NCBI GenBank assembly: GCA_009773355.1
Contig: WRPG01000014.1
Coordinates: forward strand, 1 to 64,000
DNA length: 64,000 nt
Origin: Limisphaerales bacterium
GTDB taxonomy: Bacteria > Verrucomicrobiota > Verrucomicrobiia > Limisphaerales > SXTU01
Direction of reading: 5' to 3'
Notes under the pieces: model-generated
What the model was told of the DNA's origin: nothing
Databases searched by the model: none
Seen by the model: the letters and a program-made list of their open reading frames with translations, nothing else
In this document: in pieces, positions 13,317 to 36,558 of the stretch
Position numbering within the stretch: position 1 is the stretch's first letter
How the letters are laid out: each line of letters begins with the position of its first letter
Made by a program: the position numbers and the translations under genes

Positions 13317-13453
13317 GGTTGCCTCCGGTGGCGCACAGGCGCGGTTTTAGGCGGACGGATTTCACGGTTCGCAGAGTGCCAGAGCGCGAGGGCTTCGTGT
13401 GAATCGTTTTTTCGGCCCCGGCCATCGGGGACGGAGATGCGGCTGGGCTTCCC

Positions 13454-13512
13454 CTTACGTTTTACGCGTTACGCATTACGTTTGCCGCACCGCGTAATGC
13501 GTAAAACGTAAG
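13454..13512. repeat. palindromic repeat / possible terminator after transaldolase
   Basis: Nearly perfect inverted repeat placed one base beyond the transaldolase stop. Left arm 13454-13480, right arm 13493-13512; the left arm contains a 7-base tandem duplication (GTTACGC) relative to the right arm. It could act as a transcription terminator, but there is no T tract. Confidence 0.75.
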
Positions 13513-13513
13513 C

Positions 13514-14167: not shown

Positions 14168-14285
14168 GGCAGTGTGGCGAATTGGCCGCACTCTGCGCCG
14201 GCCGGGGAAAAGGGGCAAGCGCGCTCCGGAGGACGCGTGACGCTGATTGCACCGGTCAGCACAAGGAGGCATTCTGAGCAAAATT

Positions 14286-15125: not shown

Positions 15126-15152
15126 GCCATCTCCAAAGCACCAAGACCACCG

Positions 15153-15725
15153 GTGAATCCCCAAACTAAAGCAACCAACCCTATGATCGAGCAGTTACTC
15201 GCAGACGTGGACGATGCTGAGAACGCGTTCAGGAGCGCCGCCGGAATCCCGTGCAACAAGTTCACCGGGGCTGTCACCACTGAACGACTTCGCAACTGCC
15301 TCTTGGCTGCTCTGGGTGGATGCGTCGTGCTCTCTCCGAGAGATTCTTTCATCATGGGTGTCCCATTGGAAATTGACCTGCTGGTTCTGCGGCCAGACGC
15401 GAAGCCTGCGCATCTCATCTGCTACCAGCCACGTGATGTTATCGCTGCGTTGGAGGTCAAGAACGTGGGATCATTCGGCAAGGCTACGATACAGAGCGTG
15501 AAGACCAATTTTGAGCGAATCCGGGCGGCTGCACCTTCCGCTCAGTGTTGCTACGTGGCGCTTACAGAGCGGCAAGGGTTCAGGTGGGCTGTGACGAAAG
15601 AAGGAACCGGCTTTCCAGCCTATACGCTTTCGAGCCATAAAACTTGGATGAAACCATTTACTGACCGGACACCGACTGGTGATCTTGATAGCCTAGTTCA
15701 AGACTTGAGGGAGTGGGCAGCCTAG
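15153..15725 (+). CDS. hypothetical protein with PD-(D/E)xK-like motif
   Basis: 190 residues, start GTG at 15153 (or ATG at 15183, 10 residues shorter). The segment PLEIDLLVL ... VIAALEVKNVG has the spacing of a PD-(D/E)xK nuclease core (Asp, then ExK about 25 residues later), followed by a conserved-looking KTNFERIR helix. It may be a nuclease-fold protein, active or not. It lies 27 bases after the preceding unknown gene; the two form a small plus-strand unit between minus-strand housekeeping genes and may have been acquired together. Confidence 0.55.
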   Translation: MNPQTKATNPMIEQLLADVDDAENAFRSAAGIPCNKFTGAVTTERLRNCLLAALGGCVVLSPRDSFIMGVPLEIDLLVLRPDAKPAHLICYQPRDVIAALEVKNVGSFGKATIQSVKTNFERIRAAAPSAQCCYVALTERQGFRWAVTKEGTGFPAYTLSSHKTWMKPFTDRTPTGDLDSLVQDLREWAA

Positions 15726-15759
15726 CAGGCAGCTTTGTCCATCGACCATCGACGGACGG

Positions 15760-17172
15760 CTACTTCTTCCGCGCGAAGACGTGGGTGGCGTGGCCGTAGA
15801 AGACCTCGGCGCTTTCCATCAACGTCTCGGAGAGGGTCGGGTGCGGGTGAACGCAGAGGGAAAGGTCTTTCGCGGTCGCGCCCATCTCGACGGCGAGCAC
15901 GCCTTCGGCGATGAGTTCACCCGCGCCGTGGCCGACGATGCCCACGCCCAGCACGCGCTCGGTCGCGGGGTCAATGATGAGCTTCGTCATGCCGTCGGTG
16001 CGGTCGAAGGTCAGCGCGCGGCCGCTGGCACCCCACGGGAATTTCGCGACGGTGACTTCGATGCCTTTGGCTTTGGCCTCGGCTTCGGTGAGGCCGCACC
16101 AGGCGACCTCGGGGTCGGTGAAGACGACGGCGGGGATGATGGCTTTGTCCGCGCCGGTGGCCTCGCCGGTGATAATCTCGACGGCGGTGCGGGCTTCGCG
16201 GGAGGCCTTGTGCGCGAGCATGACGCCGCCAGCGATGTCGCCGATGGCGTAGAGGGCGGGGTCGGTGGTCTGCTGCTTGTCGTTGACCACGAGGAAGCCC
16301 TTTTCGTCGAGCTTGGCCTTGGTGTTTTCGAGGCCGAGGTCTTCGCTGTTCGGCGCGCGGCCCACGGAGACGAGGACGCGGTCGTAGAGTTCTTCCTTCT
16401 GCTGGCCTTCGTGCTCGGAGATGACTTTGATCTGCTTCCCGACGGTGGACATCTTGAGGACCTTCGCCTTGACGCGGACCTCGGAGAAATTCTTCTTCGC
16501 AAAGGCCATCACGGGGCGGGCGAGGTCGGGGTCGGCCCCGAGGAGGATGCTGTTGAGCGCTTCGATGACGGTGATTTTGCTGCCCAGCGCGGCATAGACG
16601 GTGCCGAGTTCCATGCCGATGTAGCCGCCGCCGATGACGAGGAGCTTCTCGGGGATTTCCTCAATCTCCAGCGCCTCGGTGGAGGTCATGACGCGGGGGT
16701 TGCCGAGGTCGAAGGCCTTCGGCAGCGCGGGCTTGGAGCCGACGGCGACGATGGCGTGGTCGTAGGCGATGAACTGCTGGCCGGCCTCGGTCTCGACGCG
16801 CAGGGAGTTCGATCCCTCGAAGTAGCCGCGCCCGTGAATGACGGTGACGCCGCGCTTCGACGCGAGCTGGGTGATGCCGCCCGAAAGCTTCGCGATGATG
16901 GAGTCCTTCCACGCGCGGAGCTTGTCCAACTCAATCTGCGGCGTGCCGAAGGTGATGCCGCGATGCGCGGATTCCTTCGCGCCGCTGATGGTGTGGGCGG
17001 CGTAGAGCAGGGCCTTCGACGGGATGCAGCCGCGGTTGAGGCACACGCCGCCGAGCTTGGGATCGCGCTCGAGGAGGATGACTTTCTTGCCGAGGTCAGC
17101 GGCATAAAAGGCGGCGGCGTATCCGCCGGGGCCGCCACCTACTACTACGAGTTCTGTTTTGGTCGGTTCCAT
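15760..17172 (-). CDS. lpdA: dihydrolipoyl dehydrogenase (E3)
   Basis: Flavoprotein that reoxidises dihydrolipoyl groups of 2-oxoacid dehydrogenase complexes with NAD+. 470 residues; FAD motif GGGPGG at 12-17, redox disulfide C44/C49 in GGVCLNRGCIPSK, NAD-binding GGGYIGMELG in the middle, and the C-terminal catalytic HPHPTLSE. It is downstream of aceF and aceE on the same strand, so it is the E3 of the pyruvate dehydrogenase complex. A 290-base gap with a large palindromic repeat separates it from aceF. Confidence 0.96.
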   Translation of the reverse strand: MEPTKTELVVVGGGPGGYAAAFYAADLGKKVILLERDPKLGGVCLNRGCIPSKALLYAAHTISGAKESAHRGITFGTPQIELDKLRAWKDSIIAKLSGGITQLASKRGVTVIHGRGYFEGSNSLRVETEAGQQFIAYDHAIVAVGSKPALPKAFDLGNPRVMTSTEALEIEEIPEKLLVIGGGYIGMELGTVYAALGSKITVIEALNSILLGADPDLARPVMAFAKKNFSEVRVKAKVLKMSTVGKQIKVISEHEGQQKEELYDRVLVSVGRAPNSEDLGLENTKAKLDEKGFLVVNDKQQTTDPALYAIGDIAGGVMLAHKASREARTAVEIITGEATGADKAIIPAVVFTDPEVAWCGLTEAEAKAKGIEVTVAKFPWGASGRALTFDRTDGMTKLIIDPATERVLGVGIVGHGAGELIAEGVLAVEMGATAKDLSLCVHPHPTLSETLMESAEVFYGHATHVFARKK

Positions 17173-17243
17173 AAAGAGAGGAGGGAGAGATGGAGTGATA
17201 GGGGGATGGCGTGCGACTCACGGCTTCGAATCGCCGCTTCTTT

Positions 17244-17390
17244 CATTAGCACCGGGCTTCAGCCCGGTGTCAGGCCGAACGACAGAACCCCCAGCCGCTT
17301 CAGCGGCTTCCCTAACGCGCGAGGAAGCCGTTGAAACGGCTGGGCACCCGGGTTGCCGGGCGGACACCCGGCTGAAGCCGGGTGCTAATG
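17244..17390. repeat. nested palindromic repeat between aceF and lpdA
   Basis: Large inverted repeat: outer arms 17244-17270 and 17364-17390 (ATTAGCACCSGGCTTCAGCC type, nearly perfect), inner arms around 17289-17315 and 17330-17357 (AGCCGCTTCAGCGGCTTCC type). Typical of the intergenic palindromes of this phylum. It occupies most of the aceF-lpdA gap and could form a large RNA hairpin. Confidence 0.85.
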
Positions 17391-17462
17391 AGAGGGGTGT
17401 TCGCACGTGGTGACGGGGTTGGTGACGTTCGTTTGATGGCAAGGCTGCCAGCCGGCCTTTGG

Positions 17463-18755
17463 CTAGATGGCCACATCCTTCTCCGCAAAGGCCTCAATGG
17501 CTGCGAGCAGGTCCACGGTGAAGCGCGCGGCTGCGCCTCCATCAATGACGCGATGGTCGTAGCTGATGGCGATGGGGAGCATCATGCGCTGGACGATTTG
17601 CTTCTCGCGCACGACGGCTTTCAGCACGCCCTTGCCGAGGCCGAGGATGGCGACTTCCGGCTTGTTCACGATGGGTGTGAAGTGCGCGCCGCCGATGCCG
17701 CCTTGGTTCGAGATGGTGAAGGTGCCGCCCTTGAGTTCGTCGCCGGAGACCTTGCGGTCGCGGGCTTTCTTCGCGAACTCCTCGATGTCCTTGGACAGCT
17801 CCAGCAGGCTCTTCTTGTCCGCGTCGCGGATGACGGGGACGATGAGGCCGGCGTCGGTGTCCACGGCGAGGCCGAGGTGGACGTATTCCTTGAGCACGAT
17901 TTCCTCGGCTACCTCATCGAGCGAGCTGTTGAAGATGGGATGCTTCTTGAGCGTGGCGGCAACGGCCTTGAGCGCGAAGGAAGTCAGCGTGAGCCGCGTG
18001 CCCTTGGCCTCGTAGGCGGGGGCGAACTTCTTGCGCAGCTCCAAGAGCGCGGTGATGTCGGCGTCGTCGAACTGCGTGACGTGCGGGATGGCGTTCCAGT
18101 TCTCGGTCATGCGGCGCGCGATGACTTTGCGCAGCATGGACATGGGCTTCTTCGAGACCTCACCCCACTTGGAGAAGTCCACGCGCTCGGCGGCGGGCTT
18201 CTCGGCCGCGGCGGTAGCGGCAGCGGCGGGCGCGGCCTTCGGAGCGGCGGCGAGGCGCTGCAAGTGGGCGATGTAAGCCCGCACGTCGGCCATCACGATG
18301 CGGCCACCGCGCTCGCTCGCGCGGACCTGCGTGAGGTCAATGCCCAGCTCGCGGGCCATCCTGCGAATGGAGGGCGAGGCGGTGGGCTCCACGCCGGGCT
18401 GAGCCGGAGGCAGGTCGGGGAGGGGAGCTTCGGCGGCGGCGGGCGGTGCGGCTGCTGGAGCGGGAGCGCGCTTGGCTGGAGCTGCCGGGGCAGGGGAGGC
18501 GGTGGGAGGCGGGGTTGCGCTGCCGGCCTCGTCGAGGGCCAGCAGGCGCTGGCCGACGCTGACCTTGTCGCCGATTTTGATAAAGAGTTGCGTGACCACA
18601 CCGGCTTCGGGGGCCGGGATGGTGGCGACGGCCTTTTCGCTTTCGAGTTCGAGGAGGCCTTGGCCAGCGGTGACGGTGTCGCCTGCTTTGACGAGCAGGT
18701 TGACGACGGTGCCGGTGTCGGCGCCTTCGCCGAGGTTGGGGAGTTTAACGTCCAT
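17463..18755 (-). CDS. aceF: dihydrolipoamide acetyltransferase (pyruvate dehydrogenase E2)
   Basis: 430 residues with three parts in order: one lipoyl domain (lipoyl-lysine K41 in ELESEKAV), an Ala/Pro linker, a peripheral subunit-binding domain (about 125-163, PSIRRMARELGIDLTQV) and the catalytic acyltransferase domain ending with the active-site ISYDHRVIDGG. It transfers acetyl groups to CoA in the PDH core. Only one lipoyl domain is present, against three in the E. coli enzyme. It follows the aceE gene on the same strand with a small unknown gene between them. Confidence 0.95.
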   Translation of the reverse strand: MDVKLPNLGEGADTGTVVNLLVKAGDTVTAGQGLLELESEKAVATIPAPEAGVVTQLFIKIGDKVSVGQRLLALDEAGSATPPPTASPAPAAPAKRAPAPAAAPPAAAEAPLPDLPPAQPGVEPTASPSIRRMARELGIDLTQVRASERGGRIVMADVRAYIAHLQRLAAAPKAAPAAAATAAAEKPAAERVDFSKWGEVSKKPMSMLRKVIARRMTENWNAIPHVTQFDDADITALLELRKKFAPAYEAKGTRLTLTSFALKAVAATLKKHPIFNSSLDEVAEEIVLKEYVHLGLAVDTDAGLIVPVIRDADKKSLLELSKDIEEFAKKARDRKVSGDELKGGTFTISNQGGIGGAHFTPIVNKPEVAILGLGKGVLKAVVREKQIVQRMMLPIAISYDHRVIDGGAAARFTVDLLAAIEAFAEKDVAI

Positions 18756-27385: not shown

Positions 27386-27431
27386 TGGTGCACCCGCCAG
27401 GAGTTGAACCTGGAACCTGCTGATCCGTAGT
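27386..27431. repeat. attL: displaced 3' half of tRNA-Arg
   Basis: 46 bases identical to 36482-36527, from the CCA end of tRNA-Arg to its anticodon loop. Beyond 27431 the sequence no longer follows the tRNA, so this is a fragment left by integration and not a functional gene. Confidence 0.93.
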
Positions 27432-27512
27432 TGGCTAAGAAGGAAACTTCACCAGCGGTCGGGAGGGGTCAAAACCTTGCTAATTAAGGACAAAACGAGT
27501 GCTTGCAGCTCG

Positions 27513-28718
27513 TCACGAAACTTCACGGGCAGGCGTTCGCCTGGTATTCTGGAAGGTATGCCACGCCGGTTTGCCTTTTACGGGTAGGAAGCTTATTTCT
27601 GAGCCTCCGCGCCAGTTGGGTGGGACCGCTCCATAGGTCGAGGCAATGATGGCGGCTCCGGTGCGGTCCCCGATTTCAGCGGCAATCTGTCCGTCGCTGA
27701 TCCCTTGGGACCGTCGCACGGTCACAAAGAAGGCTCTGAGGCCGTGCGCCGTCCTTTTTGCCTGGCAGACGACGGGACTAATCCTTCGGAGGGCATGGCT
27801 GAGGGCGCAATCGTCCACGGGCTGGGTCGGGTCGTCGGGGGACGGAAAATACCAGGGAGAGGACGGAAAGCGGCTCCTGCGCCAAGCGGCGAGCGCGGTG
27901 AGGCATTTCTGTAAGGCTGGATGAATCATCGCGAACGGGTTCACCCCGCCTTTGGACCGGCGCAGCCAAAGCCACTCCTTTTCGACGAAGCCGGGTTCCT
28001 TGGGTTTGGCATTCCATTGGAGCCTGAGCGCCTCGGACGTTCGCGTTCCCGTCATTGCTTGGAGGAGGAGTTGCCAGCCGAGCACTTCGGACTTGGGCGA
28101 CTCGAAAAGCGTCGCGGCCAGCGTGTGCAGCTCGTCGCCGGATGCCGGCGCGAATTCCCGGCAGTGTCTCGCCTTGGAAGCCTGGTAGAAGCGTGGCCGG
28201 CTGCTCGACAGTGGGTTGTGCGGTGCCAGGCCCTGCAGCACGCCAAAGTGAAGCGCGGTCGAGAGCGTCGAAAGCTCCATGTCAATGGACCTGCCGCCGT
28301 CCGTGCCGCGCGGCATTTCCTTCCGGCGATGTGAGGCGTAAGCCTGGCACGTCGCTGGGGTTATTTCCGCCGGCGTTTTGGGTCCCCACCAGGCGGAGAG
28401 CTTCTCGACGTGCTTTTTTGTGTCGTAAGGAATCTCTCCTCGATGCTCGCCGCTGCGTTTGGGTCCCCCGGCCGAAAGCCAGGCATCGAGAATTGCTCTT
28501 ACAAGGACAATTGGCTTGTGGGTGTAGGGGTCTTCGGCCAGGCCAAACCTGGAGCGCCCCTGGAGCGTTCGCTTCGCGGCGAGTTCCTCCTTCGCGATCT
28601 TGATGGACCGTGCCAGCAGCACGCGGAAGGTTCGCCTGCCGTGGATGGTGGGCCGTTCGTAAAGGTGGCCCGTCCTGGAATCGCGGTAGATGCCTTCGGC
28701 AACGCGCGTGTAGCTCAT
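27513..28718 (-). CDS. int: tyrosine recombinase / integrase
   Basis: 401 residues. It catalyses site-specific integration at the tRNA-Arg att site. An N-terminal arm-binding/SAM-like region (about 95-170) is followed by the catalytic domain: R226 in MTGTRTSEAL, K256 in RRSKGG, H325-x-x-R328 in TAHGLRAFF and the nucleophile Y362 in ASTYGAV. The usual second His/Trp before the tyrosine appears to be an aspartate (EIGDRTG). Start ATG at 28718 overlaps the stop of the upstream DUF2726 gene (ATGA), so the two are coupled. It points toward attL, 80 bases away. Confidence 0.93.
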   Translation of the reverse strand: MSYTRVAEGIYRDSRTGHLYERPTIHGRRTFRVLLARSIKIAKEELAAKRTLQGRSRFGLAEDPYTHKPIVLVRAILDAWLSAGGPKRSGEHRGEIPYDTKKHVEKLSAWWGPKTPAEITPATCQAYASHRRKEMPRGTDGGRSIDMELSTLSTALHFGVLQGLAPHNPLSSSRPRFYQASKARHCREFAPASGDELHTLAATLFESPKSEVLGWQLLLQAMTGTRTSEALRLQWNAKPKEPGFVEKEWLWLRRSKGGVNPFAMIHPALQKCLTALAAWRRSRFPSSPWYFPSPDDPTQPVDDCALSHALRRISPVVCQAKRTAHGLRAFFVTVRRSQGISDGQIAAEIGDRTGAAIIASTYGAVPPNWRGGSEISFLPVKGKPAWHTFQNTRRTPAREVS

Positions 28719-29278
28719 GCTGCAATGCCCAGTTCTTGGAGGATGATGCGGCGTGTTTCTGGCTGCGAGTAGGACGGCTGGCACTCGATGTGCAAGATGC
28801 GCAAACCGGCTTCGGTGAAAGCTTGGTCAATGAGCTGGTCGCGTTTCCGCCTGTCTGCCCGGTCGTGGCTGCGGTCGTCGAGTTCAACGATTCCGGCGAC
28901 TTCTAGCGAGGCTGAATGACACAGGACGAAGTCCACATGCTTCTGAGCAATTGCATTCCAAGCCTTGGCCCCGTTGGACGAGTAGCGGTGTTCAATCGGA
29001 TTGATGAGGTCCGTAACACGCATCTTCGGAAAAACGACCAGCTCGGGATAAACGGCATGTGCCAGCGCGGCGTAAAAATTTAGTTCCGCCTTGGTCAAAA
29101 CTCCTCCGGTGCGCTTGTATCGAGGGGCATCTTCCTGATTGGCCGATTCTGCTGTTCTTGGTTCTAGGTCTGAACGTCGGACGCCAAGTTTCTTGAGAAC
29201 TAGAAACATGACTCCGATGCCTAGTCCTAGGACGACGACGATCAGGAAGGGCCCCAAGATAAACCACAGTGAGTTCAT
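28715..29278 (-). CDS. membrane-anchored DUF2726 protein
   Basis: 187 residues: one N-terminal membrane helix (about 5-29) and a cytoplasmic DUF2726 domain (about 58-180). The domain has a PD-(D/E)xK nuclease-like core, with D116 in QKHVDFVLC and E132-x-D134 in GIVELDDRSH. The family is widespread but its biochemical role is not established. In this prophage it is co-expressed with the integrase. A membrane-tethered nuclease-like protein on the lysogeny side could serve in superinfection exclusion or DNA processing; this is inference. Confidence 0.85.
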   Translation of the reverse strand: MNSLWFILGPFLIVVVLGLGIGVMFLVLKKLGVRRSDLEPRTAESANQEDAPRYKRTGGVLTKAELNFYAALAHAVYPELVVFPKMRVTDLINPIEHRYSSNGAKAWNAIAQKHVDFVLCHSASLEVAGIVELDDRSHDRADRRKRDQLIDQAFTEAGLRILHIECQPSYSQPETRRIILQELGIAA

Positions 29279-29306
29279 TTGAAGTTAACGAAAATGACGT
29301 TGCCAG

Positions 29307-29513
29307 TTAAGCGGCACGTCGAGCCTTGGGGGGTTCAGTAACACTCGAATGTTTGCTGAGGAGCTTCGCTTCGAGTGCCGGCAAACCTTCTTCAATGGCC
29401 TTCCGAGCGATTTGGGAAAGCGTCCTGTCGTCTGCTTTCGCTAATCGCTCAAGGCGTTCCCTCGTTTCTGTGTCCAACCGCACCCCCAGCGTTTCGGACT
29501 TCAGGGTCTTCAT
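29307..29513 (-). CDS. ribbon-helix-helix regulator
   Basis: 68 residues; ETLGVRLDTETRERLERLAKADDRTLSQIARKAIEEGL is a clear RHH (CopG/Arc) DNA-binding motif: a beta strand, then two helices. Such proteins bind operators as dimers. It is transcribed leftward from the divergent region and precedes the DUF2726-integrase pair, so it is a likely lysogeny or integrase regulator. ATG at 29513 gives the canonical RHH N-terminus. Confidence 0.85.
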   Translation of the reverse strand: MKTLKSETLGVRLDTETRERLERLAKADDRTLSQIARKAIEEGLPALEAKLLSKHSSVTEPPKARRAA

Positions 29514-29584
29514 GGCTGGACTTTCATGGAAAACCGGCGTGCAAGCAAAAATAATTCTTGCAACGATGTTCAACATTGATAACA
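29514..29584. promoter_or_regulatory. divergent control region of the prophage
   Basis: AT-rich region between the leftward RHH-DUF2726-int unit and the rightward replication/virion genes. It holds two inverted repeats that could be operators: TGCAAG-N11-CTTGCA at 29540-29562 and CATTG-ATAA-CAATG at 29574-29587. The RHH protein next to it is the obvious candidate ligand. No unambiguous -35/-10 pair was found. Confidence 0.55.
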
Positions 29585-29896
29585 ATGCAAATCATGCAAA
29601 CCGAATCGCCCTACATGACGCGGACTGAGGCGGCTGCCTGGTTGCGTTGTTCGGTGGAGACGGTGGACCGGGAAATCACCCGGCGAGGCTGGAAGACTTT
29701 CCTGCACAACCGGCGCGTTTTGGTCAGGCGCTCGGACGTGGAGGCATCGGTAAAACCGCAAAACAAGAGACTGAAAAATGAGCACGAAAACCAAGCGCAA
29801 GCGCAAATCTCGGCAGACTCGCGGCGCGGTCAAGAAGCTGGGGGTCTTCCTCCAGGGCGGCCGTTCGTTCACCGTGCGGCTGTTCACCAAAACTAA
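29585..29896 (+). CDS. excisionase-like helix-turn-helix protein
   Basis: About 103 residues (starts at 29585 or 29594 are equally possible). The part MTRTEAAAWLRCSVETVDREITRRGW...VRRSDVEASV is a winged-helix/MerR-type DNA-binding domain of the excisionase family: a TREAAxxLxVSxxTVxRxI helix pair, then the wing. The C-terminal 40 residues overlap the next gene in another frame and have non-coding-like codon use, so the functional part is probably the first 65 residues. First gene of the rightward unit; it may control excision or replication genes. Confidence 0.7.
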   Translation: MQIMQTESPYMTRTEAAAWLRCSVETVDREITRRGWKTFLHNRRVLVRRSDVEASVKPQNKRLKNEHENQAQAQISADSRRGQEAGGLPPGRPFVHRAAVHQN

Positions 29897-30053
29897 GCGC
29901 GGGCCCGAATTGCAGTTCCGCGAGAAATGGTCCCGCAGTCCCTCCGTTTTGTCCCTCGCTGAAGCTGTTGGCATCGCCGAGCGGCTCCAGTTCGGTCTGC
30001 TGCCTCTCGGCTCGGAAACCTCTGACCTTCACCAGAATGGCCGCAACCCATGA
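29778..30053 (+). CDS. small basic phage protein
   Basis: 91 residues, strongly basic N-terminus (MSTKTKRKRKSRQTRG), then a beta-rich segment (GVFLQGGRSFTVRLFTKT) and a helix (LSLAEAVGIAERLQF). Third codon positions are GC-rich in this frame while the overlapping frame is not, which supports it as a real gene despite a 119-base overlap with the HTH gene. Possibly nucleic-acid-binding; no family recognised. Confidence 0.6.
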   Translation: MSTKTKRKRKSRQTRGAVKKLGVFLQGGRSFTVRLFTKTKRGPELQFREKWSRSPSVLSLAEAVGIAERLQFGLLPLGSETSDLHQNGRNP

Positions 30054-30059
30054 CCTGCG

Positions 30060-30362
30060 ATGAAATCCAAATTTGTGGCCGAGCAATTCGACTTCCCCTT
30101 CATGGGCTGCGTGACGGTGGAGCGTTCCTCAACGGCAGCGGAGAGGTTTGGGCAATACGCGCGTGGGGAATTGAGCGAGTCGGGCATCAGCCGACACGTG
30201 AGCAGTTGGAATCCGCCGCTGCGGTCGCGGCTCACGAAGCCGAAGGACTGGGTGCGGTTGGCGGGCCTTGCGCTCTTGTGGAAGCGGACGCCACGCGGCA
30301 CGCCGCAAAAGTTGCGGCTGGTCAGTGTGAGAATCGGGAAGGCGGTGCTTCGTGACTCCTGA
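30060..30362 (+). CDS. small phage protein of unknown function
   Basis: 100 residues, basic, with a mixed alpha/beta look (MKSKFVAEQFDFPFMGCVTV ... TPQKLRLVSVRIGKAVL). The frame starting at 30050 over the same DNA has poorer codon use; GC-rich third positions favour 30060-30362. No membrane segment or known motif. It overlaps the following gene by 11 bases. Confidence 0.55.
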   Translation: MKSKFVAEQFDFPFMGCVTVERSSTAAERFGQYARGELSESGISRHVSSWNPPLRSRLTKPKDWVRLAGLALLWKRTPRGTPQKLRLVSVRIGKAVLRDS

Positions 30363-30567
30363 ACAAGCGCAAGTGTTGGACTGGATGATTCATTTTACGA
30401 CTCACTGTCAGTGCAATGGCATGGCTGGAATGTTTGCAGCCGACGAGGTTCTGAGGCTTGGGAAGCCAGTCGAGGAACTAAACCTTAAGGAGTTCTCCGA
30501 GGCCATCGAGCGTGGATACGAAATCTATCGCCAGAAGTGGAACCAACTCAATGGAGGCGCGCCGTGA
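30352..30567 (+). CDS. small phage protein of unknown function
   Basis: 71 residues from GTG at 30352, soluble and helical, with the segment MIHFTTHCQCNGMAGMFAADEVL, which places two cysteines two apart. No family recognised. It is packed between overlapping genes (11 bases upstream, GTGA junction downstream), as expected for a compact phage operon. Confidence 0.6.
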   Translation: MTPEQAQVLDWMIHFTTHCQCNGMAGMFAADEVLRLGKPVEELNLKEFSEAIERGYEIYRQKWNQLNGGAP

Positions 30568-30809
30568 CGAGCGGTGAATTCTACTGGTTCACCAACGGCT
30601 TTGCTCTAGGCATGGCGTTTTTGGGCTTGCTAGTGCACTTCGGTTTTCGTCGGCACCGTGCGCGCATCGAGGCTGCCGCCAGGCCAACCGCGCCAGCGGC
30701 AGTCCCCCCGTCCGGGGAGAGGACAGAAGCAGCGGCTACCGGCGGAGGGAAGGAAACCGGTGCCCGACGCAACCAGCGGCTTCCAGGGCGCGAGGAAAGC
30801 CCTTCCTAG
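30564..30809 (+). CDS. small single-span membrane protein
   Basis: 81 residues from GTG at 30564, which overlaps the previous stop (GTGA). One membrane helix near the N-terminus (about 8-26, FTNGFALGMAFLGLLVHFGF) is followed by a basic stretch (RRHRARIEAAARP) and a Gly/Pro/Glu-rich tail. Small membrane proteins of this kind occur as minor coat (pVII/pIX) or accessory proteins in filamentous phages, but position upstream of the replication gene differs from Ff, so the role is open. Confidence 0.6.
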   Translation: MTSGEFYWFTNGFALGMAFLGLLVHFGFRRHRARIEAAARPTAPAAVPPSGERTEAAATGGGKETGARRNQRLPGREESPS

Positions 30810-30900
30810 AAGCAGTCTTTAATTTCCCCTCGTAGGGGCAAAACCGGCGCGGACGCCCGACCGCAACCGGACAAACAAGGGCCAGAAAGAACAAACCGAA

Positions 30901-31236
30901 ATGAAAACCAGTGAACTGACTCCCGCACTGCTCAAGGGTGAACTGCTCGCCGTTGGCGAGCTGCTCGAATGGCAGGACGCGAAGGAGTTCCCAGCGAAGG
31001 ACAAGCATCGGAATGAAATCCCCGGCAAGTTCAACGTGCGGAGCGTCGCCAAGGTGCTGCTCGGAACCGAAACCGTGGAAGTCGGAGACTTCCTCAAGGT
31101 CAAGCGGGCCACCGAAGCTCCTGCCCGGCCCGAATGGGCCAAGCCCCGCGCCCGCGTTGTCCTCAAGCTCAAGGGACTCAGCCGGACGGCCTACGGTGTC
31201 CGAGCCGACGGCGAAATCATGCCTCTCGAAGCATGA
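30901..31236 (+). CDS. candidate phage ssDNA-binding protein (pV-like position)
   Basis: 111 residues, no membrane segment, rich in Lys/Glu and beta-prone segments (SVAKVLLGTETVEVGDFLKVKRA; ARVVLKLKGLSRTAYGVRADG). Size, charge pattern and placement immediately before the replication initiator match the ssDNA-binding gene V analogue of inoviruses, which coats the viral strand and switches replication to export. I see no decisive motif, so the assignment is by size and context. A strong hairpin follows the stop codon. Confidence 0.5.
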   Translation: MKTSELTPALLKGELLAVGELLEWQDAKEFPAKDKHRNEIPGKFNVRSVAKVLLGTETVEVGDFLKVKRATEAPARPEWAKPRARVVLKLKGLSRTAYGVRADGEIMPLEA

Positions 31237-31242
31237 TTCTCA

Positions 31243-31314
31243 GGGAACCGGGGACGGCGCGGGAGGACGCGAAGCGGCCCCCGCGCCGGACCCCGGTTCC
31301 CTTCCTTGTCTTTT
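31243..31314 (+). terminator. long GC-rich stem-loop before rep (terminator/attenuator or origin structure)
   Basis: Left arm 31243-31263 and right arm 31280-31301 pair almost perfectly (11 bp, a small 1x2 internal loop, then 9 bp). A 16-base loop is itself GC-rich. The right arm is followed by CTTCCTTGTCTTTTT, so it can act as a rho-independent terminator that lowers rep transcription. Filamentous phage origins and packaging signals are also long hairpins, so a dual role is possible. Confidence 0.7.
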
Positions 31315-31334
31315 TGTATCAACTCAACCGAATC

Positions 31335-31505
31335 ATGAGAAAAACGCCCACTCGCATAGGAGTGAAAGAAGCGAGACGGATTCGCTTCCTGCTCAAACTT
31401 TTCGCCCTGTTTTACGTGACGGAAGCTGCCTGCAAGGAAGTGTCACGCGCCGCAGCTATCTTGCAAAAAAAGCGGAGACGCTCTTCCAAAACCTCGACCA
31501 CATGA
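31335..31505 (+). CDS. upstream reading frame joined to rep (possible Rep N-terminus)
   Basis: 56-codon frame starting ATG at 31335: a basic start (MRKTPTRIGVKEARRIRF), a helix and a lysine/arginine-rich end. Its TGA (31503-31505) overlaps the rep ATG (ATGA). Ten codons before the stop it contains the heptamer A-AAA-AAG in the right phase for a -1 shift into the rep frame. A shifted product would read ...AAILQKKAETLFQNLDHMIARNS, one continuous amphipathic segment running into Rep. It may be a real small protein, the Rep N-terminus by frameshifting, or evidence of a one-base sequencing gap in the A tract. Confidence 0.5.
   Translation: MRKTPTRIGVKEARRIRFLLKLFALFYVTEAACKEVSRAAAILQKKRRRSSKTSTT
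31466..31472 (+). other. A-AAA-AAG slippery heptamer (candidate -1 frameshift site)
   Basis: The heptamer lies in a seven-A run (31465-31471) followed by G, with zero-frame codons CAA AAA AAG. This is the sequence used for -1 frameshifting in E. coli dnaX. A shift here moves from the 31335 frame into the replication-protein frame, which is open from this point to 32323. An AAGGAAG stretch lies about 25 bases upstream, farther than the stimulatory Shine-Dalgarno in dnaX. Confidence 0.5.
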
Positions 31506-32323
31506 TTGCCCGGAACAGCATTCAAAGAGTCGGGTTTGTGACGCTGACCTTCGCGGAGAATCTGACCGACTACAAAGAGGCCCAACGCCGGCTGAACTCC
31601 TTTGCGACGCACGTCCTTCGGAACCTCTGCACCGAGTGGATCACGGCCGTTGAGCGACAGGCACGCGGCGCGATTCACTACCATCTGTGCGCCGTATTCA
31701 CCGAAGACATCCGGACGGGCTTCAACTTTGAGGCGTGCTGGGCGGCAGCCAACGAACGCCAGACGAATGGGCAGACCGTGGCTTTTCGTTCCTTCCAACG
31801 GGCCTACTTCCAAAGCGCCAATGCGGCTCTGAGGCGCGTTTGGGACACCATCCGGGCCAAGGCACCCCTCTACGGCTTCGGACGCTGTGAGACCCTGCCC
31901 GTGCGCAGCAACACGCAAGCCGTCGCCCGTTACGTCGGCGCGTATGTGGGCAAGGAAGCGGCCAAGCGAGACGTGCGCGACAAGGGCATGAGGTCAGTGC
32001 GCTACTCGCTCGAAGAACGCAAGGCGTCGGCACGGTTCTCCTGGGTGGACGGCGCGGGCAAGAACTGGCGGCTGGGCTGCTCCGTCTTTGCGTCGTTCGT
32101 TGGCAGCGGGGAATTCCGTGAAGTGCTGGGCGACCGTTGGGCTTGGTCGTGGCGTGAAGTCATCGGCGAATTCGGCCGGCATTTTGAACGCGCCTGCGAG
32201 TTGTTGCCGGCATACCTCGAACGCTCCAGTGGCGGATTTCTCGAACACGATCTGCAATCCGCCTGCCTGCTTGCCCTACGGCTGAAGATGGAAGGAAAGG
32301 AAAAAGATGTATCGAACCCCTAA
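31502..32323 (+). CDS. rep: HUH-type rolling-circle replication initiator
   Basis: 273 residues from ATG 31502. It should nick the phage plus-strand origin and start rolling-circle replication. The three HUH-endonuclease motifs are visible: motif 1 FVTLTF at 12-17, motif 2 H59-Y-H61 (GAIHYHLCA), and motif 3 with two tyrosines Y144 and Y148 and K151 (ARYVGAYVGKE), the nucleophile region. The C-terminal 100 residues are Trp/Arg-rich. Translation may begin at 31502 by coupling to the upstream frame, or the protein may be longer through the slippery site. It ends overlapping the next small gene. Confidence 0.88.
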   Translation: MIARNSIQRVGFVTLTFAENLTDYKEAQRRLNSFATHVLRNLCTEWITAVERQARGAIHYHLCAVFTEDIRTGFNFEACWAAANERQTNGQTVAFRSFQRAYFQSANAALRRVWDTIRAKAPLYGFGRCETLPVRSNTQAVARYVGAYVGKEAAKRDVRDKGMRSVRYSLEERKASARFSWVDGAGKNWRLGCSVFASFVGSGEFREVLGDRWAWSWREVIGEFGRHFERACELLPAYLERSSGGFLEHDLQSACLLALRLKMEGKEKDVSNP

Positions 32324-32507
32324 ATTCAAAGAGGCACGGCAAGCCTGTCGTTGGCACGCGTGCTGGTGGCAATTCTTCGCGCATGGCGGACGGCCCAACC
32401 TTTCGGCCAGGCAGAACGCTGGATTCGCGAAGCTGCACCTGCAATGGGCCAAGGACGAACGCGACACCAAAAATCGAGAGGAGGCAGAATGCAGACTGCA
32501 CCAATGA
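32307..32507 (+). CDS. small phage protein
   Basis: 66 residues, basic and rich in Trp/His/Cys (ACRWHACWWQFFAHGGRP). It has a good Shine-Dalgarno (AAGGAAAGGA, ending about 7 bases before the ATG) inside the end of rep. No family recognised. It overlaps rep by 17 bases and the next gene by 19 bases, consistent with a packed phage operon. Confidence 0.55.
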   Translation: MYRTPKFKEARQACRWHACWWQFFAHGGRPNLSARQNAGFAKLHLQWAKDERDTKNREEAECRLHQ

Positions 32508-32728
32508 TGATTGTGGAGACGGAAGTTGGCTTCGCAGAAATGACGCGTCGCTTCGTTGCGATGCCTGTTCGCCTGGCGGCTACTTTCGACGGAGTTACAC
32601 CGGAGGCCGTTTATGGCCGCATCAATCGGGGAAGACAGCCCTGGGCGAGCGTCTGGGGTGAGATTTGGGTTCTAAGGCCAAATTGTTATCTACTGGCTAA
32701 CTCCCGCGCGACTGGAAATCACCGATAA
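32489..32728 (+). CDS. small phage protein, possible DNA-binding regulator
   Basis: 79 residues, start ATG at 32489 preceded by a perfect AGGAGG with 5-base spacing, which decides the start inside the previous gene. The segment VRLAATFDGVTPEAVYGRINRGR looks like a helix-turn-helix of the phage regulator type (helix - VTPEAVYGRI - RGR), but this is weak. It may control the switch to virion gene expression because it is the last gene before the coat protein. Confidence 0.55.
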   Translation: MQTAPMMIVETEVGFAEMTRRFVAMPVRLAATFDGVTPEAVYGRINRGRQPWASVWGEIWVLRPNCYLLANSRATGNHR

Positions 32729-32800
32729 TTGGCGCGTTCGCACCGGCAACTTCCGGCCAACACGGCGCGGGGTCGAGCGAAGCAAGAGAAAGGCAACACA

Positions 32801-33082
32801 GTGAAGTTCCTCGAAAACATCAAGTCGGGCTTCGCCGCCACCGTGGAAGGCGCGAAGCGTTTGGGGCAGTCGTTGGTCAGCGGCGGCAAGCGCGTCGTCG
32901 CGGTCCTGACGGGCCTCGCGGTCGGCGCGCAGGTCGCGACGGCGCAGACCGCCGCCACGCTGCCGGACGTCAGCGCGACGATGGACACCGTGAAGGGCCT
33001 CGCCTACACGGCCATCACCATCGCCGTCGCCATTGTCGGCGTGAAGATGGGCATTCGGTTCGTGAAGTGGGTCCGCGGCTAA
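32801..33082 (+). CDS. major coat protein (pVIII-like)
   Basis: 93-residue precursor from GTG 32801. Residues 1-30 are amphipathic and basic, 31-48 form a signal helix (RVVAVLTGLAVGAQVATA) with an AxA signal-peptidase site at 46-48. The mature chain of about 45 residues has the filamentous phage plan: a short acidic/polar N-terminus (LPDVSATMD), one membrane helix (LAYTAITIAVAIVGV) and a basic C-terminus (KMGIRFVKWVRG) that would face the DNA. The n-region is longer than in Ff pVIII. It is followed by a strong terminator, as in Ff phages after gene VIII. Confidence 0.88.
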   Translation: MKFLENIKSGFAATVEGAKRLGQSLVSGGKRVVAVLTGLAVGAQVATAQTAATLPDVSATMDTVKGLAYTAITIAVAIVGVKMGIRFVKWVRG

Positions 33083-33103
33083 GGCGCACCGCTGGCGTTC
33101 ATC

Positions 33104-33136
33104 GGGCCGGGCGTGCGAACCACGTCCGGCCCTTTT
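33104..33136 (+). terminator. rho-independent terminator after the major coat gene
   Basis: 12-bp stem (GGGCCGGGCGTG pairing with CACGTCCGGCCC, one G-U pair), loop CGAAC, then TTTT. It sits 21 bases downstream of the coat gene. In Ff phages the central terminator has the same place and keeps coat mRNA abundant. Confidence 0.85.
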
Positions 33137-33168
33137 CCTTCCATGTCCCTTCTGCTCGAACAATTGCT

Positions 33169-34578
33169 ATGCGTCGTCTTCGGCTTCTCCTGTGCTTGGC
33201 TGGTCTGGCGTGCGTTGTCCCGACGCTGAGGGCGCAGTATCAAGCTCCTCCCGCCGGCACGGTTGCCACGGCAGTTCACGTCGTGAATGCGGACGCGATG
33301 GGGCAGGCCGTGGGTGCTGCTGTCAGCGGTCCACTTGTCAACGCTTTCAACCAATTCAACGGCACAGCCGGCAACATCAATGCCACGTTGGCGGGCTTGA
33401 ACCTCACGATGGCAAACCTCTCCGGTTCAATGGCGGGCGTGGCGGAAGGCACCATCTCGACCGCCCAGCAGCTCTCCCTGCTGAACGGCGCAATGGCCGG
33501 ATTTCAACAACAGGTTTGGCAGTTCGGGACGCACGTCTTCAATATGTCGGCGAGCATCAACAACCTCAATGCGCAGGTTGCTGGCGTTCAAGCGGCAGTC
33601 AACGGATTGGGCGGACAGGTGAGCGCGGCCATCACTGCCGGCATGGCCGCGAACGGCAACGCTAATCAGTCCATGCTCGCGAAACTCGACGGCATCAAGG
33701 ACGTGCTCATGACGAACAACCTCGGCAGCACGAACAATTTCACGCTCAACAGCACGAACGGGAACATCTCAATTACGAACATCGTGCAGGCCAATTTCCC
33801 GCAGTTGGCGGACGTCGAAAGTTTCGCGTTCCGGTCGAAGACCAATGCTGACCTCCTCGGTGGGTTCAATCCCTCGACCGACTCCATAAATGAAGTCCAG
33901 TCCGCGACAGACACGGCCAACCAAACCACGCCCAACTTTGGCATTCTCGCCTCTGGTTACGTGCCTGTTCAAGTGGGTGGCGGCTTCTCCGAAGGGTTCC
34001 TCAAGATGGTGATTCCAAAGCCGGCGGGCTTCCCCGGCGTCGCATCTGACTACACCATAGACATGAACCCGTGGACGCTGCACCAAGGTGCGCTCCAAGG
34101 CACACTGAACTGGTTCCGTGCTGCGTGTGCGTGGCTGTTCACCGTCCTTTTCCTCATCAAGTGCAACGGCATCGCAGAAAACTATTTCTTGCAAATGGGA
34201 AAGGTTGGGCAGTTGCACACGCCGAAGTTCACCGTCCTTGGAACACACGTTGGGAAACTCGCGTGGCCCATCTACCGCGTAACCTTCCTCGGCCTCGCGG
34301 TTGCTCTGCAAGCGAGCATCACCCTGATGCTCACGGGTGCGTCTGGCCTTGGCATCGAGGCCACAACGGGCGGCGTCACTGGCGGCGTTGCCGGCCTCGT
34401 CGGCAATCTGACGCGTGATGTCTTCATCGGGTTGACGGGTGACGTTGTTTTGCTCTTGGACAAGATTTTCCCGTTGGCCCTCATGGTCAGTCAGCTCCTT
34501 TTCCTGCTCACCAGCCGCTTTCATCTCATGGTCGCATGGTGGTCTTACCAGATGGCTATTCGCCTCCTCCCGGCATGA
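33169..34578 (+). CDS. candidate minor coat / adsorption protein with multi-span C-terminus
   Basis: 469 residues. A signal peptide (MRRLRLLLCLAGLACVVPTLRA) is followed by a long Asn/Ala/Gly-rich region (about 45-200) with heptad-like Leu/Val spacing (NLNAQVAGVQAAVNGLGGQ), probably a fibrous coiled domain. A polar middle part follows, then a C-terminal third with three or four membrane helices (WLFTVLFLIKC; VTFLGLAVALQASITLML; IFPLALMVSQLLFLLTS). In the gene order it occupies the pIII place. Unlike Ff pIII it has several spans, so it may combine receptor-binding and pVI-like capping roles. Start ATG 33169 sets the signal peptide at the N-terminus. It ends in an ATGA overlap with the next gene. 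Confidence 0.65.
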   Translation: MRRLRLLLCLAGLACVVPTLRAQYQAPPAGTVATAVHVVNADAMGQAVGAAVSGPLVNAFNQFNGTAGNINATLAGLNLTMANLSGSMAGVAEGTISTAQQLSLLNGAMAGFQQQVWQFGTHVFNMSASINNLNAQVAGVQAAVNGLGGQVSAAITAGMAANGNANQSMLAKLDGIKDVLMTNNLGSTNNFTLNSTNGNISITNIVQANFPQLADVESFAFRSKTNADLLGGFNPSTDSINEVQSATDTANQTTPNFGILASGYVPVQVGGGFSEGFLKMVIPKPAGFPGVASDYTIDMNPWTLHQGALQGTLNWFRAACAWLFTVLFLIKCNGIAENYFLQMGKVGQLHTPKFTVLGTHVGKLAWPIYRVTFLGLAVALQASITLMLTGASGLGIEATTGGVTGGVAGLVGNLTRDVFIGLTGDVVLLLDKIFPLALMVSQLLFLLTSRFHLMVAWWSYQMAIRLLPA

Positions 34579-35207
34579 GCTTTCAATTCGTAAACGTGTC
34601 GGGCCAGAACCTCAGCTTGAACCTCTCTGGTGAGCAGGTTTGCTTTTGCCCTCCGGGCTTTTCCGGGGCGGTCAACCTCAATGGGACGGTCGAGGTCTTC
34701 AAGCTCGGCGTGGAACTCGTAACGACGAACTTCCTCGGTGCGAACCTCTCAGTAAGCGGTGGCGGAACCGTCCTGACGAATACGGACAATCAGCGCGTTG
34801 TTGTGGCAACCGGCCTTGCAACCGACCCGCCGTTTTCATTCTTCGCCGGTTCGGTGAACATCGCCAATCTCTACATCAACGACAGTTACAACCTCGCCTA
34901 CACTTACGACGGGGTTGCCGTGAACTTTGTTGGCTCGGATGCATCCTTGGAACCAAACACCATTTCCATCACCGACTTGACCGGCGGCGGAATCACCACC
35001 AACGGCAACGGTTCGGTGCTGCTGGGAACTTTCGACGCTGGCGGTGGCACAAGGGAAGTTGTTGCTGGCGTCAGCGCCTTGAACGTCTCCACCTATGCCG
35101 GGCACGTCGAGGCGTTCGGCTGGGGCCTCGCCTTGGGTGTCGTCGTTTTCGGCTATCGCTGGGTCTGCAACGTCATCGGGAGCATTGGGAGGGAACAAGA
35201 TTTATGA
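34575..35207 (+). CDS. C-terminally anchored phage protein (candidate minor coat)
   Basis: 210 residues, translationally coupled on both sides (ATGA at 34575 and 35204). Residues 1-180 are beta-rich and Asn/Gly/Thr-rich (NVSGQNLSLNLSGEQVCFC; TDLTGGGITTNGNG); a single membrane helix lies at the C-terminus (FGWGLALGVVVFGYRWVCNVIG). No N-terminal signal peptide is evident. Its place between the large minor-coat candidate and Zot matches gene VI of Ff phages, but it is larger than pVI and shows no sequence kinship I can see. Confidence 0.6.
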   Translation: MSFQFVNVSGQNLSLNLSGEQVCFCPPGFSGAVNLNGTVEVFKLGVELVTTNFLGANLSVSGGGTVLTNTDNQRVVVATGLATDPPFSFFAGSVNIANLYINDSYNLAYTYDGVAVNFVGSDASLEPNTISITDLTGGGITTNGNGSVLLGTFDAGGGTREVVAGVSALNVSTYAGHVEAFGWGLALGVVVFGYRWVCNVIGSIGREQDL

Positions 35208-36433
35208 GCGTCAGCTTCATCGTCGGAAAACCCGGTGGGGGAAAATCCATGCTCGCCACTCGCGTTGTCCTGAACGAGCTGGTTACTACCGACCGTTACG
35301 TCGTCACCAATGTCCCCTTGCGGCCCAAGCGGCTTATCGAATACGCGCTTGCGAAGTATGGTGCCCACGTCAACCCGGCTCGCATCCGGATTCTGAACGA
35401 TGAGGAGACCAAGCAGTTCTTCCTGCACCGTGCCGGCAACCACGTCGCCGCGATGCCTCCCGATGGCACCAACGGAGTTGTTGACTACAAGCGTTGCACC
35501 GGGCCGGACGGCATCGAGCGCGATAACGGCGAGTTGCTGCCTGTGTTCTACGTCATTGATGAGGCGCACCTGCACTTTGGAGCGCGGGATTGGGCCAAGA
35601 CTGGCAAGCCGGCGATGTGGTATCTGAGCCAGCATCGGCACTTCGGGGACAATGTGGTTTTCGTCACACAGTCATGGAAGAACGTGGACGGAGCATTCCG
35701 GCGACTGGCGCAGGAATTCACAACCTGTGTGAACCTCTCGAAGCGGCGGGCGTTCGGCTTCCGCTTGCCGCCGGTGTTCATGCTCCGCACCTTCGACCAA
35801 GAGCCGACGCCCTACGCAACGGAAGTGTCCAGCGAAGCGCACCGCATGGACGCGGAAGGCTTGGCTTCGTGCTACGACACGGCGGCGGGCGTGGGCATTA
35901 CCACGGGCCTTGCCGACACGCGGGACAAGCCGACTGGTTTCCATTGGGGTTGGGGTTTGGCGTGCGTTGCCTTGGTGCTTGCGTGCGTCGGCTTGATGCC
36001 GCTCCTGATGGGCAAGGGCGCGGAAAAGTTCCTGCACGGTGCGACGGGCCAAGTGAAGCTCACGAACGCGGCCCCGGCCGTGATGACGAACACGCCGCCG
36101 CCTCGTCACGTGCCGGCGATCGTGACGAACTTTCCTCCTTCGGCTGCGGCCTCCGGCAACTTCGTGACTGTCCAGGGTGCGCCCCGTGTCCAGCCCGTGA
36201 GCTACCAGCCGTCCAGCATCCTGCTGGCGGAAACGAACGGCACGCGTCTCATGCTCACGAAGTCCATTGACCTCGAACCAACGCCGAAGGTGAAGTTCTT
36301 CATCCGGCGCGAGAACTTCGTTGTGCTCGGTCTCGACAGCGGCGACGTGCTGACGGTCGGCGACGGCCGTTTGGTCGTGGCGGGAAAGATTGCGGTAGTG
36401 GATGGCAATCGGGCTTACCGACTGCCTGAATGA
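35204..36433 (+). CDS. Zot/pI-family phage assembly ATPase
   Basis: 409-residue inner-membrane ATPase that drives extrusion of the filament. Walker A is GKPGGGKS at 8-15, Walker B VFYVIDEAH with D119/E120, and a later VVFVTQSW sensor segment at 151-158, all standard for the Zot/pI family. One membrane helix (about 248-269, GLACVALVLACVGLMPLL) separates the cytoplasmic ATPase from a periplasmic C-terminal domain of about 140 residues. In Ff phages that domain contacts the pIV secretin. No secretin gene is present here. Shine-Dalgarno GGAGG lies about 12 bases upstream. Last gene of the element. Confidence 0.93.
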   Translation: MSVSFIVGKPGGGKSMLATRVVLNELVTTDRYVVTNVPLRPKRLIEYALAKYGAHVNPARIRILNDEETKQFFLHRAGNHVAAMPPDGTNGVVDYKRCTGPDGIERDNGELLPVFYVIDEAHLHFGARDWAKTGKPAMWYLSQHRHFGDNVVFVTQSWKNVDGAFRRLAQEFTTCVNLSKRRAFGFRLPPVFMLRTFDQEPTPYATEVSSEAHRMDAEGLASCYDTAAGVGITTGLADTRDKPTGFHWGWGLACVALVLACVGLMPLLMGKGAEKFLHGATGQVKLTNAAPAVMTNTPPPRHVPAIVTNFPPSAAASGNFVTVQGAPRVQPVSYQPSSILLAETNGTRLMLTKSIDLEPTPKVKFFIRRENFVVLGLDSGDVLTVGDGRLVVAGKIAVVDGNRAYRLPE

Positions 36434-36481
36434 AGAATGGTATGCCGAACGGTATTCGGGGTTGTGGGAAGTGCTGAAAAC

Positions 36482-36527
36482 TGGTGCACCCGCCAGGAGT
36501 TGAACCTGGAACCTGCTGATCCGTAGT
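36482..36527. repeat. attR: direct repeat inside the intact tRNA-Arg
   Basis: Right copy of the 46-bp direct repeat (identical to 27386-27431). It supplies the 3' half of the functional tRNA-Arg gene, meaning the phage carried this segment in its attP. Confidence 0.93.
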
Positions 36528-36558
36528 CAGCCGCTCTATCCAATTGAGCTACGGGTGC
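36482..36558 (-). tRNA. tRNA-Arg (ACG anticodon)
   Basis: Complete minus-strand cloverleaf: acceptor GCACCCG/CGGGTGC, anticodon stem GCTGA/TCAGC, loop CTACGGA (anticodon ACG, read as ICG), T arm with TTCAACT, encoded CCA. It is the integration target of the prophage, and the gene is kept intact by the phage-derived 3' half. Confidence 0.95.

Follow-up and report, generated by a model that had tools for sequence, protein, structure and literature searches.

Introduction

In the filamentous phages CTX-phi, Pf and f1, the structural and assembly genes follow each other in the order pVIII-pIII-pVI-pI. According to the main text of Roux et al. (2019; PMC6813254), the pI/Zot ATPase is the only conserved marker gene of inoviruses, and these phages were reported in 22 additional phyla; the main text does not name Verrucomicrobia. 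For the Lentisphaerae inovirus Phage-WC36-1, filamentous particles in cultures and phages outside the host chromosomes are described in the relevant passages of PMC11361711. Here we analyze an element integrated in a tRNA-Arg gene within a stretch of 64,000 nucleotides (hereafter the window) of contig WRPG01000014.1 from a Limisphaerales bacterium (assembly GCA_009773355.1). Judging from its genes, it is very probably a temperate inovirus-like (Tubulavirales-type) phage present as an apparently complete prophage in this Verrucomicrobiota genome.

The kind of virus is not new, given the wide known distribution of inoviruses and the published filamentous particles of Lentisphaerae. In GTDB, the Lentisphaeria are placed in Verrucomicrobiota. 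Phage-WC36-1 is likewise a PVC-group inovirus, whose particles were seen (in the same passages of PMC11361711), but the phages described there lie outside the host chromosomes. A literature search of titles and abstract beginnings found no report of a Verrucomicrobiota inovirus outside the Lentisphaerae, and prior reports are possible. Beyond the kind already known, the element appears to have a fused tip protein, a Rep of miniplasmid type and a candidate origin inside the rep gene.

An inovirus-like prophage in tRNA-Arg

The element is 9,096 bp long, counted from copy to copy of a perfect 46-bp direct repeat that bounds it and corresponds to the 3' half of tRNA-Arg(ACG); the right copy lies inside the intact tRNA gene (Table 1). 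With up to three mismatches allowed, only two matches to the repeat were found in the window (mean in 100 shuffles 0.00), and a search with 71 bases around the left copy revealed no third copy in the genome at E <= 0.001. The G+C content is 59.8% in the element versus 66.0% in the rest of the window. All features of a tRNA-targeted tyrosine-integrase element were found, namely the integrase residues R (GTRTSEAL), HxxR (HGLR) and Y (STYG), an attachment site formed by the tRNA 3' end, and an intact tRNA gene. The genes form a leftward set (integrase, DUF2726 protein, Arc-like regulator) and a rightward set (excisionase (Xis)-like protein, small open reading frames (ORFs), 111-aa protein, Rep, coat, tip, 210-aa protein, Zot). 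On its left side the element is flanked by nusB (PF01029), and beyond its right end lies an HU/IHF-type gene (PF00216).

The last gene of the rightward set encodes a pI/Zot ATPase of the FtsK-HerA type, which matches PF05707 with E 3.9e-12 (46.5 bits, cut-off 20.3) and contains Walker A (GKPGGGKS) and Walker B (VFYVIDE) motifs and a transmembrane (TM) segment at about residues 251-270. It matched 36 of 50,697 phage records (Vibrio 18, bajarodino 14, Dulem 2, Villovirus 2); among the 20 matches listed, the features were named Zot, assembly protein or hypothetical protein. The putative coat protein is similar to the coat-position protein of another inovirus locus, L119 (E 1.8e-5; L and G numbers are our own labels for loci and genomes), which itself matches a PHROG virion structural protein (E 3.2e-9). 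Its leader is long, about 49 residues up to a plausible cleavage site (by eye), and the remaining part of about 44 aa with one TM segment agrees with the short structural proteins of inoviruses (30-90 aa). In keeping with inoviruses, the genome is small and composed of short genes that are uncharacterized or inovirus-like. The coat gene is followed by a terminator-like hairpin; region-wide, such sites were not in excess (11 versus a mean of 11.8 in shuffles).

Thus, the first-pass annotation of the locus as an inovirus-like prophage in tRNA-Arg is supported by the attachment repeats, the Zot families, the phage-record matches and the coat similarity. Its individual elements were also recovered: the repeat of the tRNA 3' half (by repeat search and tRNA scan), the integrase at one end, the HUH initiator (by Rep family matches and motifs), the short signal-peptide coat protein with a terminator behind it, and the Zot/pI ATPase at the other end.

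The element shares with the inoviruses described in the main text of PMC6813254 a Zot with the TM segment C-terminal to the ATPase domain, a short single-TM coat protein, an HUH Rep, small size and a tRNA-type attachment site. It differs from them by a fused-type tip, no separate pVI found, an extra single-TM protein before Zot and no phage secretin. The order coat-tip-assembly ATPase and the terminator after the coat gene are the same as in CTX-phi, Pf and f1, but the functions of pIII and pVI apparently reside in one chain, and integration into a tRNA gene by the element's own tyrosine integrase replaces the XerCD-dif route. Among Vibrio Tubulavirales, PQ189300 is the best Zot match and PQ189368 carries a DUF2726 gene, as the element does; both differ from it in having separate genes, a large one in the tip position and a small one in the pVI position, and PQ189368 has its own annotated pIV.

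A probable single-chain pIII-pVI tip protein

In f1, the tip is built jointly by pIII and pVI, with one predicted TM helix in the former and three in the latter, as stated in the part of PMC10175506 dealing with these proteins. The 469-aa protein of the element has a signal peptide (by eye), a long ectodomain and four C-terminal TM segments. We found no gene for a separate pVI in the element, which departs from the usual arrangement of separate pIII and pVI genes; the main text of PMC6813254 does not name this arrangement as a defining inovirus feature. On the basis of sequence comparisons we consider it likely that the 469-aa protein is a pIII fused to pVI.

The same architecture was revealed in a set of ten fused-type loci (the window, L026, L027, L029, L089, L090, L091, one phage each of L119 and L120, and L121), in which the large protein preceding Zot has two to five C-terminal TM segments. 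In the eight readable loci of this set, a protein with a TM segment at its C-terminus, 46-255 aa long, precedes Zot, the 210-aa protein of the element thus having positional counterparts in seven other loci. In ten split-type loci, the large protein has one or two C-terminal TM segments and is followed by a protein of 96-154 aa with one to four, an order also present in an annotated Vibrio Tubulavirales genome (pIII-pVI, with pVI named). In a Zot tree, from which L130 and the partial or degenerate L028 and L030-L033 were left out, the ten fused-type and ten split-type loci were separated by one branch with support 97/97.

Comparison of the C-terminal parts points in the same direction. A profile of the fused C-termini searched against 2,838 ORFs ranked its ten members first, and ranks 11-16 were all pVI-position proteins. 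Against 223 multi-TM ORFs, ten pVI-position proteins took ranks 1-5, 7, 8, 13, 32 and 71 (Mann-Whitney p 5e-7), and eight of 11 verrucomicrobial pVI proteins scored better than at least 197 of 200 shuffles that keep the hydrophobic pattern. Moreover, residues 493-581 of the fused protein of L119 align with residues 24-104 of the L120 pVI (25% identity, pairwise E 0.001).

Several points weigh against the fusion. The pVI proteins of L122 and L130 failed to beat the shuffles, and that of L129 was unscored there. Alignment of the fused C-terminus with the pVI set by hhalign gave a probability of 8.8% (E 0.0038), the fused profile did not reach two Vibrio pVI-position proteins (ranks 82 and 65), and the reverse search with a pVI profile against all ORFs was weak (L090 E 2.1, L029 E 2.8, L091 E 17). 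The verrucomicrobial pVI proteins were assigned by position, length and TM pattern, and a pVI family match was found in none of four of them with Pfam and none of five with PHROGs. The structure predictions were unusable (mean pLDDT 36.6 for the tip protein and 32.5 for the 210-aa protein). The Zot tree contains five long end branches, and 10 of its 17 inner branches fall under the support line; its clean separation of the two sets is partly a matter of ascertainment, because the relatives were found partly by similarity to the Zot of the window. The hhalign value, the weak reverse search and the dissimilarity to the Vibrio proteins would fit a pIII carrying an unrelated multi-TM anchor, with pVI lost or replaced by the 210-aa protein. 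We regard this as possible but clearly the less probable explanation, since the rank tests with verrucomicrobial pVI-position proteins and the L119-L120 alignment speak against it.

If the fusion is real, a natural single-chain pIII-pVI tip would mean that the two tip proteins of Ff phages work as a unit in assembly and entry, and it would provide a new scaffold for display work. No report of such a tip was found in the search of titles and abstract beginnings, and here too prior reports are possible.

It should be noted that split-type and fused-type inoviruses adjoin each other in each of two genomes, at L119 (G325) 1698-16530 and L120 (G425) 4038-17611. The adjoining phages share the N-terminal domain of the tip protein (49% identity, E 5e-72, and 63%, E 3e-64, respectively) and differ in its C-terminus. 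In the hosts of L119 and L120, such pairs sharing an adsorption-side domain may therefore be viewed as natural domain-swap experiments. The fused-type phage of L119 is bounded by a perfect 24-nt repeat (8385-8408 and 16615-16638), with no integrase seen inside; from its resemblance to such sites, we take the repeat to be possibly a dif-like XerCD site.

Rep and a candidate origin inside its gene

The Rep protein contains the motifs FVTLTF, HYH and YVGAYVGK, and its probable start codon is GTG at 31196. We considered whether a frameshift at the A-rich run near 31467 could provide the start, and rejected this because homologues match the Rep frame upstream of the run. Rep matched 37 plasmid records (best E 6e-48, 36% identity over 81% by BLAST) and three phage records (best E 3e-4). 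All 12 plasmids listed among these matches are miniplasmids of 0.7-2.1 kb, and typing of all 37 gave 35 non-mobilizable and two conjugative plasmids. In the 12 records listed, the Reps of phasyl/Arp miniplasmids from E. coli, Klebsiella, Aeromonas and others are 34-40% identical to that of the element; the name "phasyl arp" was found in one annotated record, L137. Helper phages of the filamentous kind package phasyl DNA; our literature search turned up nothing on this.

Inside the rep frame, a 61-nt GC-rich hairpin is followed by the motif CTTCCTTGTC. Neither the inverted repeat with its 29-nt arms and the nick-like motif behind it nor the DUF2726 gene had been noticed in the first-pass annotation. 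The sequence CCTTGT occupies the corresponding position in 12 of 15 rep loci, and 10 of these 12 have it in frame with Rep; when four miniplasmids were added, CTTCCTTGTC was present in 15 of 18 loci and in frame in 13 of the 15. These counts leave aside L043, whose rep is truncated by the contig end, as well as L023 and L024 (weak Rep matches). L036, with only 60 nt upstream of the Rep match, was scored as a miss, and L042 belongs to the 15-locus but not to the 18-locus count. The hairpin arms vary in their letters, and in most rep loci the hairpin ends at or beside the motif; the exceptions are L040 and L044, which fold differently, and L042, which is cut by the contig end. In L040 and L089, the motif is retained though out of frame and therefore points to a constraint on the DNA itself. 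A stricter motif pattern occurred six times in five of 196 genomes, always at rep loci already found (reversed control pattern: two occurrences); the window's own copy falls outside this pattern.

Judged by sequence, the likely origin lies within the rep frame and consists of the hairpin with CTTCCTTGTC behind it. By analogy with rolling-circle replicons in general, such a site would be nicked. All four miniplasmids inspected share CTTCCTTGTC in the same rep frame, so that an Arp-like two-tyrosine HUH Rep and a nick-like motif inside rep, as in phasyl/Arp replicons, appear to be common to both. These four differ in that they have only 1.5-2.1 kb, too small for coat, tip and Zot, and show no obvious GC hairpin. 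The hairpin and CTTCCTTGTC link gammaproteobacterial phasyl-type miniplasmids with phages and integrating elements of Verrucomicrobiota.

Nature of the element

The first-pass annotation had named a Zot or Rep nearer to plasmid or conjugative families than to inoviruses as grounds for giving up the phage interpretation. This turned out to be half the case, Rep being nearest to plasmids and Zot being of inovirus type. Since the same Rep family is present in three other inovirus loci (L089, L119 and L120), we consider the plasmid match a sign of module exchange and not a refutation. An integrative plasmid or satellite, that is, a phasyl-like replicon with an integrase that has acquired inovirus genes, would agree with the closeness of Rep to Arp-type miniplasmids (E 6e-48) and with the existence in the order, partly in the same genus, of integrase-Rep elements lacking Zot (such as L041). 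It is nevertheless improbable, because the element carries the coat-tip-Zot set and its Rep pairs in the Rep tree with that of the inovirus contig L089 (support 99/98). Still further from the data is a conjugative or mobilizable element in which "Zot" would be a coupling or VirB4-like ATPase: the matches to VirB4-like ATPases in NCBIfam (E 0.24 and 0.41) stay below threshold and are far weaker than those to Zot/pI, and no relaxase or type IV secretion system family was found above cut-off among the 10 element proteins scanned. We give this explanation hardly any weight.

A somewhat greater chance, albeit a small one, is left for a defective or domesticated inovirus remnant that no longer makes particles. 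Both the integrase and the coat protein fall below the Pfam cut-offs, which counts against a temperate inovirus-like phage, and the divergence of tip and coat, without matches above curated cut-offs, would suit a remnant; partial relatives also exist, namely L028 (a 246-aa Zot without an adjoining tip gene) and L030 (Zot and integrase fragments). In opposition to this, all genes of the module are open, the attachment repeats are perfect, and the gene order agrees with that of L089 when the latter is read as circular.

For a temperate inovirus-like phage, the following cycle can be proposed. The integrase would insert the 9,096-bp circle into tRNA-Arg with preservation of the tRNA, and the Arc-like and Xis-like proteins would set the switch between lysogeny and excision. 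Rep would cut at CTTCCTTGTC and produce single-stranded DNA (ssDNA) by rolling circle. Coat subunits would wait in the inner membrane, and Zot/pI would extrude the ssDNA through them. Exit would proceed through a host secretin, because no secretin match was found in the contig; four were found elsewhere in the genome. The particle would be closed by the 469-aa protein, which would do in one chain what the intertwined pIII and pVI do at the tip of Ff phages; the 210-aa protein may belong to the tip as well, as another minor component.

Accessory genes

The features of the element are collected in Table 1. The DUF2726 protein has a hydrophobic N-terminus (by eye) and a homologue in the inovirus locus L119 of G325 (7507-8007, E 8e-18). 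It also matched six Vibrio phage records, of which the one inspected is a Tubulavirales genome (PQ189368). DUF2726 genes thus recur as cargo of otherwise dissimilar inoviruses (window 28715-29278, L119 7507-8007, PQ189368). The protein may be accessory cargo and, as a guess, might act in superinfection exclusion. From its position, the 111-aa protein is possibly an ssDNA-binding protein. No PADLOC match was found at E <= 0.01 among eight element proteins, and p3 had no match among phage records at E <= 0.1.

Table 1. Features of the element and its attachment sites in the window.
Feature	Position	Strand	Basis
attL, 46-bp copy of the tRNA-Arg 3' half	27386..27431	none	Repeat searches of window and genome
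Tyrosine integrase, 401 aa	27513..28718	-	PHROG integrase E 8e-21; PF00589 E 2.7e-4, below cut-off
DUF2726 protein, 187 aa	28715..29278	-	PF10881 E 2.4e-29
Ribbon-helix-helix (Arc-like) regulator, 68 aa	29307..29513	-	PHROG Arc-like repressor E 3.2e-9
Excisionase-like helix-turn-helix (HTH) protein, first ATG 29594	29588..29896 as scanned	+	PHROG excisionase E 1.1e-6
Four small ORFs, no function assigned	29778..30809 (29778-30053, 30050-30355 or 30060-30362, 30352-30567, 30564-30809)	+	Open frames alone
111-aa protein	30901..31236	+	No significant family match, best E 0.37
Two-tyrosine HUH Rep, phasyl/Arp kind	31196..32323 (frame open 30938-32323)	+	PF23343 E 2.5e-9; PHROG 3419 E 1.9e-12
Candidate origin hairpin, 61 nt, GC-rich, 29-nt arms, 3-nt loop	31242..31302	+	Inverted-repeat search; inside rep frame
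CTTCCTTGTC, candidate Rep nick motif	31301..31310	+	In 15/18 rep loci
66-aa ORF, no function assigned	32307..32507	+	Open frame alone
pVIII-like major coat precursor, 93 aa, one TM segment, basic C-terminus	32801..33082	+	Phage_Coat_B E 0.016, sub-threshold
Terminator-like hairpin 3' of coat gene, 12 pairs	33104..33132	+	Hairpin scan
Probable pIII-pVI-like fused tip protein, 469 aa	33169..34578	+	TM pattern, locus comparison, profile ranks
210-aa protein, one C-terminal TM segment, no function assigned	34575..35207	+	Between tip protein and Zot
Zot/pI morphogenesis ATPase, 409 aa	35204..36433	+	PF05707; PHROG Zot and M13 protein I families
attR, 46-bp repeat within intact tRNA-Arg	36482..36527	none	Repeat searches
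tRNA-Arg(ACG), intact	36482..36558	-	tRNA scan of window

Distribution of related elements

The tip-to-Zot module has relatives in further families of the order, elsewhere in the class and among IMG/VR contigs. At E <= 0.001, Zot relatives were present in seven of 196 genomes of the order (own genome included) and absent from the eight further genomes of the genus in this sample; in the genus, PF05707 matched one of 11 genomes, the window's own. In the phylum, Zot profile A4 matched 14 of 387 genomes at E <= 1e-5, and PF05707 matched 27, 25 of them over the cut-off (own genome included in each count); stretches from twelve of the 26 other genomes with PF05707 matches were inspected. A PF05707 match alone does not prove an inovirus, because matches were likewise obtained in four or five of 14 control genomes. 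The description of such phages as poorly described in this phylum is fair, but weaker than it sounds in view of the 25 genomes with a Zot-family match over the Pfam cut-off.

Single-sequence pattern searches for Zot confirmed no relative among IMG/VR and GTDB contigs. An alignment-based Zot query revealed three IMG/VR contigs and two genome loci, and three further IMG/VR scans added no contig. When the IMG/VR contig L089 (10.4 kb; Zot 36%, Rep 38%) is taken as a circle, its genes follow the order Rep, coat, tip, mid, Zot; this order depends on the circular reading, and L089 showed no terminal repeat. The order tip-mid-Zot is also present in L026, L027 and L029.

Rep relatives were found in 14 of the 196 genomes of the order, own genome included. 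Some of them belong to elements with an integrase. L041 (6107-10926) is a 4.8-kb element bounded by 28-bp repeats of the tRNA-Asp 3' end; it has an integrase (PF00589) and a phasyl-type Rep with the origin motif, and no Zot. In the same genus, L037 (5633-9352) contains an integrase (PF00589) adjoining tRNA-Ser, an HTH_17 (Xis-like) protein and Rep, with no attachment repeat found, and L038 (1050-2641) contains an HTH_17 (Xis-like) protein and Rep; neither genome gave a Zot-family match. As a guess, these Zot-less elements are satellites. It can be tentatively hypothesized, as a scenario we hold to be rather doubtful, that a separate Verrucomicrobiota lineage exists with a single-chain pIII-pVI tip and partly a phasyl-type origin in rep, for which the Zot-less elements, having the same origin and living in the same hosts, would serve as packaged integrating satellites.

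In three same-genus genomes, tRNA-Arg follows an HU/IHF-type gene (PF00216 in the window), and none of them has the nusB side of the window, so that no clean empty attB was found in the genus. A different species of the genus has, behind the same tRNA-Arg, a frame (L048 2033-2509) whose first part resembles an integrase N-terminus (by eye), perhaps a remnant of another element. On the short contig L030 (4035-4986), Zot and integrase fragments lie within 1 kb and perhaps represent a decayed relative of the element. Finally, two Zot copies with identical scores were revealed on one chromosome (G468:C1:885273 and G468:C1:2099484), which suggests a duplicated prophage.

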